Below are positions 12,201-15,780 of a stretch of 64,000 bases of DNA, in pieces. How positions within the stretch are numbered: the stretch's first letter is position 1; each line of letters opens with the position of its first letter. The stretch lies in assembly GCF_000143535.2 (NCBI RefSeq), contig NC_037317.1:434001-498000 (forward strand), read 5' to 3'. The translations under genes and the position numbers were made by a program. This DNA is from Botrytis cinerea B05.10. Lineage: Eukaryota; Ascomycota; Leotiomycetes; Helotiales; Sclerotiniaceae. A model generated the notes under the pieces. That model was not told the DNA's origin. It did no database searches and saw only the letters and a list, made by a program, of their open reading frames with translations.

Positions 12201-13144
12201 CGTGTGCAGCCTTGGAGTTGGAGATCTAGTCGACGCCACAAACACACACCAGTGAAATTGCCGATGATATGCTTTGAACATGATATTGGGAAGGACCTCG
12301 GACAGTCAATAGACGGGGATCGATCAAACAGTAGTGTCAGATGTACATGGGAGGGAGGATCTGTGGATGAGGGTTTGTTTACATTGCATCCTATTCGGGC
12401 CATGTTATGAGCGATATTGATTGATGTTTCGACACTCTGGGGTAGCGAAGGTTGAGCTACCCTGCCATGGCGTATCGAGAGACGAGAAAGAGGGAAATGA
12501 GAGGGAGGGAAGCGCAGAGGAGAGATGAGAGGTATCACGGGTATCCAGACATATGACGATAAGTGTTGGAACCCAACCGGAGAAGCGTTGGATTGCAATT
12601 ACAGACATTCCTACATCCATCGCAGAGAGGTAGGTGCTAGGTAGGTGCTAGGTAGCTCGCAAACAGACCGACTCCGTGTGACTGTCCATCGTCCAACGTA
12701 CCGTGAGCATACTTTGGCCGTGTCTTATCATTTCCGTCTTCTCGCCCGTCGCAGAGATGTCACTCCCATCCGTCATTTCTCATCCAGCCATCATCCCTCG
12801 TCCTTCGCCGTCCCTCTCACCCTGTGCATCCACCCCTCCCCCCATCAATCATAAAAGCAGACGGTCTTCCCTACCACTTTTCGTCGCGTTCTGCATTGCA
12901 CTTCGTAACTCGGCTTCCTCCAATGTAACCCAGCCGTCCGCGACGGGAATTCTCAGGGAATTACTTGATGCAGTTAGTCACGAAATATAATATCGCACGC
13001 AGAGTGCCGCAATCGAGTGAATGTAAACAAACAAATAAGCACGCCTGGGTACACCTAATAAAAATCGTGATGGCTGTACGCATAATTTAAAATCGAGCGA
13101 CCCTGCTGGCTGGCTCGAAGAGAAAAATTGAATATCCAACCACC
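9233..13144. other. Long gene-poor region, ending in the hex1 promoter
   Basis: Nearly 4 kb with only short open frames, many starting at TTG or GTG and none with recognisable domains or splice structure (for example 9519-9842, 10686-10931 and 11942-12598 on the minus strand, 10735-11283 on the plus strand). CCAAT occurs near 11327. A small tandem repeat of about 12 bp (GTAGGTGCTAG twice) lies at 12629-12652. The last 500 bp upstream of the hex1 leader is the likely hex1 promoter. No transposon ends were recognised. Confidence 0.5.
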
Positions 13145-13260
13145 GTGATTTTTCTAAATCTGCGCCCACCACCCTTCGCTCGCCCTTCGCAATCAATCGC
13201 TCTCCACCATCTTCTTTCCCTCTCTCCATCCTCCCACCCCACATCAACACAAATACAACC
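13045..13260 (+). promoter_or_regulatory. Probable hex1 core promoter and pyrimidine-rich start region
   Basis: A TATA-like AATAAAAAT at about 13053-13062 and ATAATTTAAAAT near 13081-13092 are followed by a strongly pyrimidine-biased stretch (about 13150-13250) rich in CCCTT, CTCTCC and CATC. CT-rich tracts around transcription starts are typical of strongly expressed fungal genes. The exact start site cannot be placed from sequence alone. Confidence 0.35.
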
Positions 13261-13549
13261 TCAAAATCGCATCCCCAATCAATTTTGTACACACACACTA
13301 CTCTACACTACACTCTTCATACCTGCCTGCCTCACGTTCTCCATTGCCCTTTCGCAATCACGATATACTCCTGCCGCTCACAGTTCATCTTGAAAGACCT
13401 CGAATATTTTTTGAATTCTGAAAGTCGAGTCAAGAAACGTTACCCGTAAACGTTTTCTTCCCTCCTCCTTCTACCTCAAGAAGTAGAGATCCTTCTTGTG
13501 ATATCCTTTCGGCACGCTGAAAGGTATTCGAGAAGTGTTCTCGCATTGA

Positions 13550-15079
13550 AAGGTCGTCAACCTGGACTTTGACGCACGTATACCGATCCCCTTCAGCATC
13601 TTCCCGTCGTCGTATAGAAGCGACGCCGCTGCCCAACACATACATACCACCGAGACTCACGTCGAAGGTGAAATCACTCTACAACATCATCACGAGCGCG
13701 TCGGACGGGAAGGTCAAGAAGAGGACGCTCAATCTCTTTACTCACAGCCCCAACACCAACACCACCATCACCACGCACACGAACACGAGCACGAGCACCA
13801 ACATCAACATCACCTTCCTCCCCCTCCTCAACGACAGGAGTTCATAGAAGAAGAGGTTCGCATCACCCGTGAAGAAGACCGCCGTTCTGAATACCGTCCG
13901 AGCAGCCGAAAAGAAGAAGAAGTTTATATTCGAGAAGAACGCAGGTTAGTAACTAAAAACACAAGCCCCCCAAACACTGCCTCCCAGAAACCCCCAAGCT
14001 CCTTTTTCCCTCCCCAATCCACTATCAATCGCAAATGCCATCAAAAACAAAACAACGAGCCACCAGTCGTCCCAGACCGACCATCTGGAGCCCCAAATGA
14101 CACGCACCCTACTTTTTCCCCCTTCACCTCCATTTTCACCTCTCTTTGGGAAAAAGGGCCCCTTCCCAATTTTTCTTTCTTTTCTGGTTCTACAGCATTA
14201 ATCCAAACGATCTGGCCATGTCGGAAGAAGCAGTACCCAATTAACCATTAATTGGGTCCCTTCTGAGACAAATTTGCCAGCTTTCTTGTTTTTTATTATT
14301 ACGACGCACAGTCCAACGATCTTCGGTTTAGTCCCAGCCACCCCCCTTACCCCAAAAATAACATGGGCTTTCTTTTTTTCTTCTAGTGTTGACACAGTAA
14401 CGCTCACCGTTTAATTTTCTTCATTAACTGACCCTTTGGTTTTCTCTACCCTTCTTTTAGACCCGAACACAAACACAAACACCACTCTGCTTCCTTCGAT
14501 ATCAACACCCCACATCACCACCGACACTTCGAAGCTTCTTTTGAAAGAGACAGTGATCGTCACCACAAGCACACTGAAGTTAACATCGAACTTCCCCGTC
14601 GTGAACACCACCATCACCACCGCCGTCCCTCTTCTGAAGCAGACTTTCAACTAGAACGTCAACGCCAGCCTCGTCACTACGAACCATCCGAAGTTGACTC
14701 TCAATTCTCTGCTCCTCAAAAGAGTCCTACCGAGACCAACATCGACTTCGTTGAACGCCAATACCGTTCCCGAACCCAGCCAACGTTCAAGGAAGACACT
14801 GTCATCGTCGACCCTCCCAAATCCCGTGTATCTGAACCAAGATACATTGAAGAGACCCGTGTAACTGAGACTACTATCGTCCCAGCTCCTCGCTCAACTC
14901 ACTCCCACAAGCCCAAGTCCACCTTCCACGAAGAACAATTCGAGGAAGTTCACGTCAAGCAACCTCGCACACCAGCCAGATCTACTTTCACCGAAGAAGT
15001 TCGTGAAAGAGAACTCGTCAAGTACACTCCCCCCGCACCCAAATCAACCACTTCAAGTTTCAAACCAGTCAATCTCGAA
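13550..15079 (+). other. hex1 leader with ATG-free frame open into HEX-1
   Basis: Upstream of the HEX-1 ATG two blocks, 13550-13944 (131 codons plus 2 nt) and 14461-15079 (1 nt plus 206 codons), join across a 516-bp intron (donor GTTAGT at 13945, acceptor TTTTAG at 14460) and run without a stop into the HEX-1 frame. From 13141 to 13944 and from 14461 to 15079 there is no ATG in any frame, so the spliced leader's first ATG is that of HEX-1. The open frame looks like protein: strong preference for C-ending codons, Arg/Glu-rich stretches (KEEEVYIREERR), His-rich stretches, and repeated motifs (PKSTFHEEQFEEV, ARSTFTEEVRE). Either it is a long N-terminal extension started at an unseen upstream exon or at a non-AUG codon, or it is a decayed or regulatory leader. 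Splice variants of hex-1 are known from other Pezizomycotina. Confidence 0.55.
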
Positions 15080-15780
15080 ATGGGTTACTACGATGATGAA
15101 GGTAAGCTCCTAGTTTGTTTTTTCTCTAACCCCCCATCATGTACCCTAAGCATTCAATATCAGGGAATTATCACTCCCTTCGTGGAGGTTACTACCATGG
15201 ACACGGGAAAACTTTGAACCAGGACCCAATTGACTCTCTCGATTTAGCCGGCGCCCCAGCCGTTGCTGCTCCAAAGCAACCTGCCAACACCGTTACCATC
15301 CCTTGCCACCACATCCGTATGGGTGACCTCTTGATGCTCCAAGGACGTCCCTGCCAGGTTATCCGTATCACCACCTCCGCCGCCACTGGCCAACACCGTT
15401 ACTTGGGTGTCGACCTCTTCACCAGACAATTGAATGAAGAGTCCTCTTTCATCGCCAACCCAAGCCCAAGTGTCGTCGTCCAAACTATGTTGGGACCAGT
15501 CTTCAAGCAATACCGTGTTCTTGATCTCCAGGACCACTCTGGTAAGTTTTATCTGTCACCGTCTGTACAAGTACCTCATGCTAACATGAACACAGTTGTT
15601 GCCATGACCGAGACCGGTGATGTCAAGCAAGCCATTCCCGTTTTGGACCAATCCAACCTCTGGACCCGTCTCAAGGAGGCCTTCGAAGGTGGACGTGGTA
15701 GCATCCGTATCATGGTCGTTGCCGATGGTGGTCGTGAGATCGCTGTTGACATGAAGACCGTCCACGGATCCCGTCTGTAG
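15080..15780 (+). CDS. hex1: Woronin body major protein HEX-1
   Basis: Exons 15080-15101, 15164-15541 and 15596-15780 give 194 residues. Introns of 62 and 54 bp have GTAAG donors and CAG acceptors. The product is the self-assembling core protein of Woronin bodies, peroxisome-derived organelles that plug septal pores after wounding. Evidence: the start MGYYDDEGNYHS, the eIF5A-like two-domain fold (VTIPCHHIRMGDLLMLQGRP then RYLGVDLFTRQL), the second domain with VVAMTETGDVKQ and RGSIRIMVVADGGRE, and the C-terminal peroxisomal signal SRL. The hypusine-loop sequence of true eIF5A is absent. The ATG has context CGAAATGG. Codon use is highly biased, which fits strong expression. The upstream frame is open, so a longer isoform is possible. 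Confidence 0.96.

Follow-up and report, generated by a model that had tools for sequence, protein, structure and literature searches.

The 64,000-nucleotide (nt) stretch of Botrytis cinerea B05.10 analyzed here (contig NC_037317.1, positions 434,001 to 498,000, forward strand; hereafter the window, within which all positions are given) carries hex1 on its forward strand. The gene is assigned to HEX-1 by close similarity. The best protein match of the window protein, from Botryotinia globosa, is 94% identical over the whole query. The two domains expected of an eIF5A-like protein were scored on relatives: PF21485 exceeds its cut-off of 27.1 in P0001 (30.2), which is 94% identical to the window protein, and in P0106 (28.9), while PF01287 stays below its cut-off of 24.2 in both (18.8 and 23.4, respectively). 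HEX-1 self-assembles into the core of the Woronin body, a fungal organelle, and its homologues form crystals and plug septal pores. We describe a long, methionine-free open frame in the leader of this gene and propose that a CUG-started long HEX-1 and an AUG-started short HEX-1 are, very probably, both made from one spliced hex1 mRNA.

The hex1 leader is open in the HEX-1 frame and free of ATG

The leader consists of two blocks (13550-13944 and 14461-15079; 395 + 619 = 1014 nt) that together give 338 codons in the HEX-1 frame, with no in-frame stop and no ATG in any frame. An earlier note on this DNA had reported this open frame with its coordinates, the absence of ATG and the intervening intron; all of these are right, and the intron has GT-AG borders. 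The non-AUG start considered in that note, the CTG at 13562 with A at -3 and G at +4, indeed lies in the context AAC CTG GAC. It is the sole in-frame CTG of the leader, in which in-frame TTG or GTG codons do not occur. Joining exons 13562-13944, 14461-15101, 15164-15541 and 15596-15780 yields 528 residues from this CTG, including an extension of 334 residues without internal Met, and the same splice form read from the ATG at 15080 yields the 194-residue short HEX-1. The junction peptide REERRPEHKHKHH across the leader intron is unbroken in the protein P0003, which comes from a short contig. Peptides predicted from the leader in this genome include SPTETNIDFVER, EDTVIVDPPK, VTETTIVPAPR and STFHEEQFEEVHVK.

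Table 1. Features of the hex1 locus in the window
Feature	Position	Strand	Basis or remark
In-frame TGA closing the HEX-1 frame upstream	13547-13549	+	Stop-to-stop frame starts at 13550; four codons ahead of the CTG
CTG (AAC CTG GAC), proposed long HEX-1 start codon	13562-13564	+	Leu in relatives, Asp next
Exon, first extension part (LDFDARIPIPFSIFPSSYR motif, then His- and Arg/Glu-rich tail)	13562-13944	+	Open, ATG-free, conserved
Leader intron GTTAGT...TTTTAG, 516 nt, four ATGs inside	13945-14460	+	GT-AG; junction peptide continuous in P0003
Exon, second extension part	14461-15079	+	Open frame, ATG-free, conserved in relatives
Short HEX-1 start (ATG, MGYYDDEG), first AUG past the leader	15080-15101	+	Sequence
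GT-AG introns of the HEX-1 coding region	15102-15163 and 15542-15595	+	Exon joins yield the full protein
HEX-1 coding exon; alternative acceptor would begin the exon at 15248	15164-15541	+	Exon joins
Last HEX-1 exon with stop codon	15596-15780	+	Protein C-terminus SRL (PTS1, peroxisome signal)
Predicted RNA hairpin just 5' of the CTG, containing GGTATTCGAGAA	13486-13542	+	Fold of 13486-13545

Base composition predicts 9.6 ATGs in the leader and dinucleotide composition 4.5; none is observed, and when its 1014 nt were shuffled with dinucleotides preserved, 20 of 5000 shuffles were ATG-free. If the spliced leader is extended to 13073 (1491 nt), none of 5000 shuffles was ATG-free, and the 573 bases preceding 13073 hold seven ATGs and the intron four (Fisher p = 7e-5), but the boundary was set just past the ATG at 13070, which makes both results look stronger than they are. 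On the forward strand of the entire window, the longest ATG-free gaps are one of 965 nt (13070-14035) and one of 717 nt (14363-15080), which cover both leader blocks and extend slightly into the intron; the third measures 386 nt and the longest on the minus strand 381 nt. Because 311 of 5000 synonymous codon shuffles with the protein held fixed also lack an out-of-frame ATG, the signal in this single sequence consists mostly of missing in-frame Met.

The HEX-1 frame has the best codon log-odds of the six frames in the leader (-0.153 bits/codon; the other five range from -0.217 to -0.309), with -0.017 bits/codon for the HEX-1 core, and this signal was judged too weak to serve as the basis of the coding case. 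The coding character ascribed to the leader in the earlier note is borne out for the STFHEE/STFTEE repeats and the His-rich and Arg/Glu-rich stretches, all present in the translation, but less so for the C-ending codons, which are mild (third positions 38% C and 28% A), while the log-odds are negative. Such weak single-sequence codon statistics would suit a non-coding leader that is ATG-free merely so that ribosomes reach HEX-1, with its frame open by chance; indeed, an ATG-free leader by itself suffices for short HEX-1. A naive chance of about 4e-6 for 338 open codons at the leader composition speaks against this explanation, the conservation of the frame as protein in the relatives described below contradicts it, and we find it hardly credible.

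The intron after MGYYDDE offers a further choice. An acceptor before 15248 would yield MGYYDDEAGAPAVAA, as in P0004, whereas P0003 has AGSPAVAA. Two starts combined with two acceptors could give up to four HEX-1 forms.

The extension is conserved as protein and nearly devoid of Met

Three protein searches returned 885, 982 and 967 matches, and the best 120 of each were listed, giving 333 distinct proteins. An extension start resembling LDF[DE]AR[VI]P[IV]P, or at greater length LDF[DE]ARVP[IV]PFS, stands ahead of HEX-1 in 275 of these 333, and the looser anchor P.P.S.FP..Y places the extension in 287, of which 286 are usable. The first 18 residues of the extension are nearly invariant across classes. 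The seven carrier species that were looked up represent seven classes, one species each (Arthoniomycetes, Geoglossomycetes, Eurotiomycetes, Candelariomycetes, Xylonomycetes, Sordariomycetes and Dothideomycetes), to which the Leotiomycetes are to be added. The conservation of the frame thus supports the long N-terminal HEX-1 isoform that the earlier note had suggested. The extension measures 170-350 residues among the relatives, with 463 in the odd model P0022.

No Met occurs between the start motif and MGYYDD in 261 of the 263 proteins that have both ends (60,299 residues); the exceptions are P0022, with two Met in a model reading through introns, and P0248, with one. In the columns of a 125-sequence alignment where Met is not the majority residue, Met accounts for 1 of 23,044 extension residues and 195 of 23,152 core residues, and in the aliphatic columns for 1 of 2,444 and 141 of 5,744, respectively. 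The lone extension Met, in P0190, falls on the start position itself. These counts support the suggestion in the earlier note that the absence of ATG spares scanning ribosomes for the HEX-1 start. The P0190 model (Chrysothrix sp.) opens with Met where others have Leu; either the start has turned into ATG in that lineage, or the gene prediction introduced a tiny exon.

Beyond its start motif the extension is predicted to be mostly disordered. The AlphaFold model of P0001, made with the 125-sequence alignment, has low confidence (mean predicted local distance difference test score, pLDDT, 58.7; predicted template modeling score, pTM, 0.34) and places a short helix at 226-238 of this protein. Because the model is mostly of low confidence, the function of the extension is expected to lie in linear motifs. 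The same low confidence over most of the extension, together with its variable length, would agree with an extension that is translated for regulation only, as a tax on HEX-1 output, and yields a functionless long protein. Pure regulation does not require near-invariant first 18 residues across classes, however, and we regard this explanation as quite unlikely.

In 165 proteins, the extension is poor in Cys, Trp and Leu (0.03, 0.05 and 1.6% of residues, respectively), and the leader in this genome contains 22 TG dinucleotides with 31.2 expected. The scarcity of these residues is compatible with codons containing TG being avoided, and equally with plain disorder. When the extension was used as a query against the same genome, the search returned hex1 and one weak match (G000:C13:1815350-1815811; E = 0.0037, 24% identity, several stops), which is probably a low-complexity similarity. 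One scan each of genome contigs and viral contigs found no DNA of the relatives.

Conservation begins abruptly at a leucine, the CTG at 13562

The strict motif pattern demanded [LMVI] followed by D, and the counts were therefore repeated with P.P.S.FP..Y, which leaves these positions free. In this free count, Leu occupies the start position in 277 of 286 listed proteins and Asp the next in 276 of 286. Twelve rows misfit the strict pattern; by eye, most of them look like models joined within the motif. The entropy rises from 0.28 bits at the Leu to 0.75 at -1, 1.92 at -2, 2.87 at -3 and more than 3 further upstream. Conservation thus begins abruptly at the Leu, which is the CTG at 13562 in this genome.

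The position preceding the Leu is of particular interest. By the strict pattern, the residue at -1 is Asn in 254, Thr in 14, Lys in four and Val in one of 273 proteins, so that Asn, Thr and Lys together account for 272 of 273. All Asn, Thr and Lys codons begin with A, and the restriction to these dissimilar residues is as expected if the -3 base of a start codon were invariably A. In the repeat count, residues with A-first codons are found in 271 of 272 proteins at -1, 3 of 269 at -2 and 54 of 269 at -3, and further upstream in 124 of 267 at -4, 26 of 263 at -5 and 22 of 258 at -6. The Asp that follows the Leu provides the G at +4.

Upstream of the CTG the reading frame is lost

The peptides RHSR, AFEK and GIRE, found upstream of the Leu in relatives, represent the three frames of one nucleotide string, GGCATTCGAGAA. 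Its Botrytis version, GGTATTCGAGAA, is located at 13523-13534 and ends 27 nt before the CTG. Under a strict count, [HYND]SR, [AGL]FE/KK and G[IF]RE occur in 92, 19 and 6 of the 275 models, with none of them in 158; shuffled upstream residues gave 6.8, 0.4 and 0.1, and a 14-residue stretch further upstream (-45 to -32) gave 1, 0 and 0 of 75, respectively. All three reading frames of the string are encountered within Penicillium. The occurrence of the string in all three frames means that indels that are not a multiple of three have been accepted between the string and the Leu. Unlike this upstream frame, the protein downstream of the Leu keeps its register. The comparison uses protein models, to which mis-set introns could add noise.

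The string is part of a predicted RNA hairpin. The fold of 13486-13545 has an energy of -25.9 kcal/mol (z -4.75; none of 200 shuffles as stable), for a stretch that was picked after a longer fold (z -2.17), and the overlapping stretch 13495-13560 gave z -1.05. The hairpin just before the CUG may affect the choice of start. Another candidate, a hairpin that would place the CTG in its loop (approximately 13551-13579), was rejected, as it did not exceed shuffles (z -0.28). The region 13486-13545 also contains TTCGAGAA, which we take to resemble a heat-shock factor site. A Trp before K-V-V-N in P0003, P0004 and P0022 was considered as evidence of a stop and left unused, as it may represent TGA in another code or a true TGG; P0042, a genome model, likewise has Trp before K-V-V-N.

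Both origins that the earlier note had offered for a long isoform, a non-AUG start and an unseen upstream ATG exon, have to be weighed against these data. In the second case, the long isoform would be real but started from an ordinary AUG in an exon, with its own promoter or splice form, that is spliced to a candidate acceptor AG at 13551-13552. A Met opens 243 of the 275 models, in many of them through a predicted upstream part such as the MA ahead of VVNLDF in P0001. These beginnings do not converge, however: the 275 models start with 259 distinct sets of first five residues, their leading sequence ranges from 0 to 325 residues, and the upstream parts of the four Fusarium models compared are unlike one another. 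Some of the model Met are probably non-ATG starts that one source writes as M (P0016 versus P0036). In addition, proteins from short contigs (P0003; P0016 and P0055) show no join where the leader passes into the motif. P0003 (526 residues, contig of 2,144 nt) is continuous across the introns, and P0016 and P0055 are two splice forms, with two acceptors, after MGYYDEDG; we take these three contigs to be transcripts, which their sources do not state. An upstream AUG exon would also leave the missing Met unexplained, since a protein begun at an AUG can carry a Met inside without harm. Given the sharp start at the Leu, the A-first codon at -1, the varied N-termini and the frame lost upstream, the sequences favor the CTG at 13562 as the start of the long form, and an upstream exon appears unlikely.

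A proposed dual start on one mRNA

We propose the following mechanism for the expression of hex1, in which initiation at the CUG, leaky scanning past it, the ratio of the two forms and the role of the tail are what we infer from the sequences. Scanning ribosomes would first reach the CUG at 13562 in a near-optimal context. A minority would initiate there and produce the 528-residue long HEX-1, composed of the Met-free extension with the LDFDARIPIPFSIFPSSYR motif first, followed by the entire HEX-1 domain and the SRL terminus. The majority would bypass the CUG, find no AUG in the next kilobase and start at the AUG at 15080, giving short HEX-1. AUG would be selected out of the extension, as any internal AUG would capture ribosomes at the expense of short HEX-1. 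Through the shared domain, the long form would probably enter the HEX-1 crystal, and its conserved N-terminal motif might, as a guess, be a docking or capping site.

The missing Met codons point to a shared mRNA, because a Met in the tail would carry no cost if the two forms had separate mRNAs or if the short one arose by cleavage. This bears on the possibility that a long precursor is made and then cleaved into short HEX-1. Cleavage of Neurospora Hex-1 is cited in the available part of PMC7559983, where the mature length is still to be determined. Nevertheless, cleavage accounts neither for the avoidance of ATG nor for the retention of the MGYYDD AUG, which has G at both -3 and +4, and it still requires a start for the long frame; we judge it very unlikely.

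Several observations weigh against the proposed dual start. The enrichment of A-first codons at -1 is by far the strongest, yet not the only one, as -4 is enriched as well (Lys, Thr). The V/A/G-N at -2/-1 is partly conserved, which could mean that protein conservation begins a few codons earlier. The CTG codon itself is known from this genome alone, whereas the relatives are known as protein, showing Leu. The negative codon log-odds of the leader and the weakness of codon statistics from a single sequence also count here. By the strict pattern, 58 of the 333 listed proteins lack the motif, and 12 of the 275 carriers have no recognized MGYYDD downstream. Moreover, an internal Met may be taken as the start of a gene model, so that the model is shortened or missed, and this would bias the Met count; in 55 listed motif-less models, Met ahead of MGYYDD lies no further in than residue 55, mostly in leading sequence that by eye is unrelated. 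Finally, the antibody work on HEX-1 isoforms cited in PMC7762394 concerns splice forms only, and Sclerotinia hex1 was cloned from the MGYYDEE short start (primer) in PMC3338822; no long band is mentioned in the available sections of either paper.

Relation to known systems

The closest precedent, and a clear one, is cpc-1 of Neurospora crassa and its Pezizomycotina homologues, which carry a near-cognate-initiated N-terminal extension according to the accessible part of PMC5487733; by analogy, hex1 would join this known class. As in cpc-1, the main frame is open far upstream without an in-frame AUG, here over 338 ATG-free codons, and the amino acid conservation typical of such extensions holds for hex1 among the listed proteins. 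The two cases differ in other respects. As described in that part of PMC5487733, two AUG upstream open reading frames are bypassed in cpc-1 and several near-cognates are present, and the extension is backed by in vitro and ribosome profiling data; the hex1 leader has no AUG and one conserved Leu (CTG here), and its extension is known from sequence alone. Neurospora hex-1 presumably carries the extension too, judging by other Sordariales. The length of the hex1 extension, 170-350 residues, also sets it apart. The terms 'hex', 'Woronin' and NCU08332 are absent from the main text of PMC5487733 in its accessible part.

The gene and its domain (PF21485 in relatives), the MGYYDD start and the PTS1 agree with the Woronin body major protein HEX-1/HexA. 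For this protein, the sections of PMC7762394 at our disposal attribute hex1 isoforms to alternative splicing of the intron after MGYYDD and consider hypervariable N-terminal extensions as possible annotation errors, and those of PMC7559983 report large length differences among 460 Hex1 proteins, which are left open. In contrast to both accounts, the extension described here is one conserved coding region. Pyricularia oryzae HEX1 proteins of 439 and 417 amino acids are cited in PMC8475275, and the domain of Aspergillus flavus HexA lies at 419-493 (PMC6371581); these long proteins have the size expected of extension plus HEX-1, and the available text of the two papers does not discuss where they start. 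Among the entries of a phosphoproteome of Botrytis is a putative Woronin body major protein (PMC6614480). The accessible portions of PMC3713238, PMC9882315, PMC11166925, PMC5656841 and PMC12077801 do not mention a long form. A literature search, with subscription papers mostly outside its reach, found no description of a non-AUG hex1 start.

Implications for Woronin body biology

In its broadest form, the proposal is that the dual start is ancient and present in nearly all filamentous ascomycetes of the leotiomyceta, with a conserved docking motif and with Met kept out of 170-350 residues in hundreds of species. The long form would govern nucleation, tethering or capping of the Woronin body core, and the upstream sequence or hairpin may tune the ratio of the two forms. 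We consider this broad version to have an even chance of being right.

If the dual start is true, the widely varying recorded lengths of HEX-1 would go back to a single conserved isoform with a start that annotators are unable to place, and hex1 would be a very widespread case of non-AUG initiation in an important gene. The Met-free coding region would then be a visible trace of such initiation, for which other genes can be screened. Strains that have lost a single isoform would be easy to make, by which nucleation, sizing and tethering of the Woronin body would become testable.

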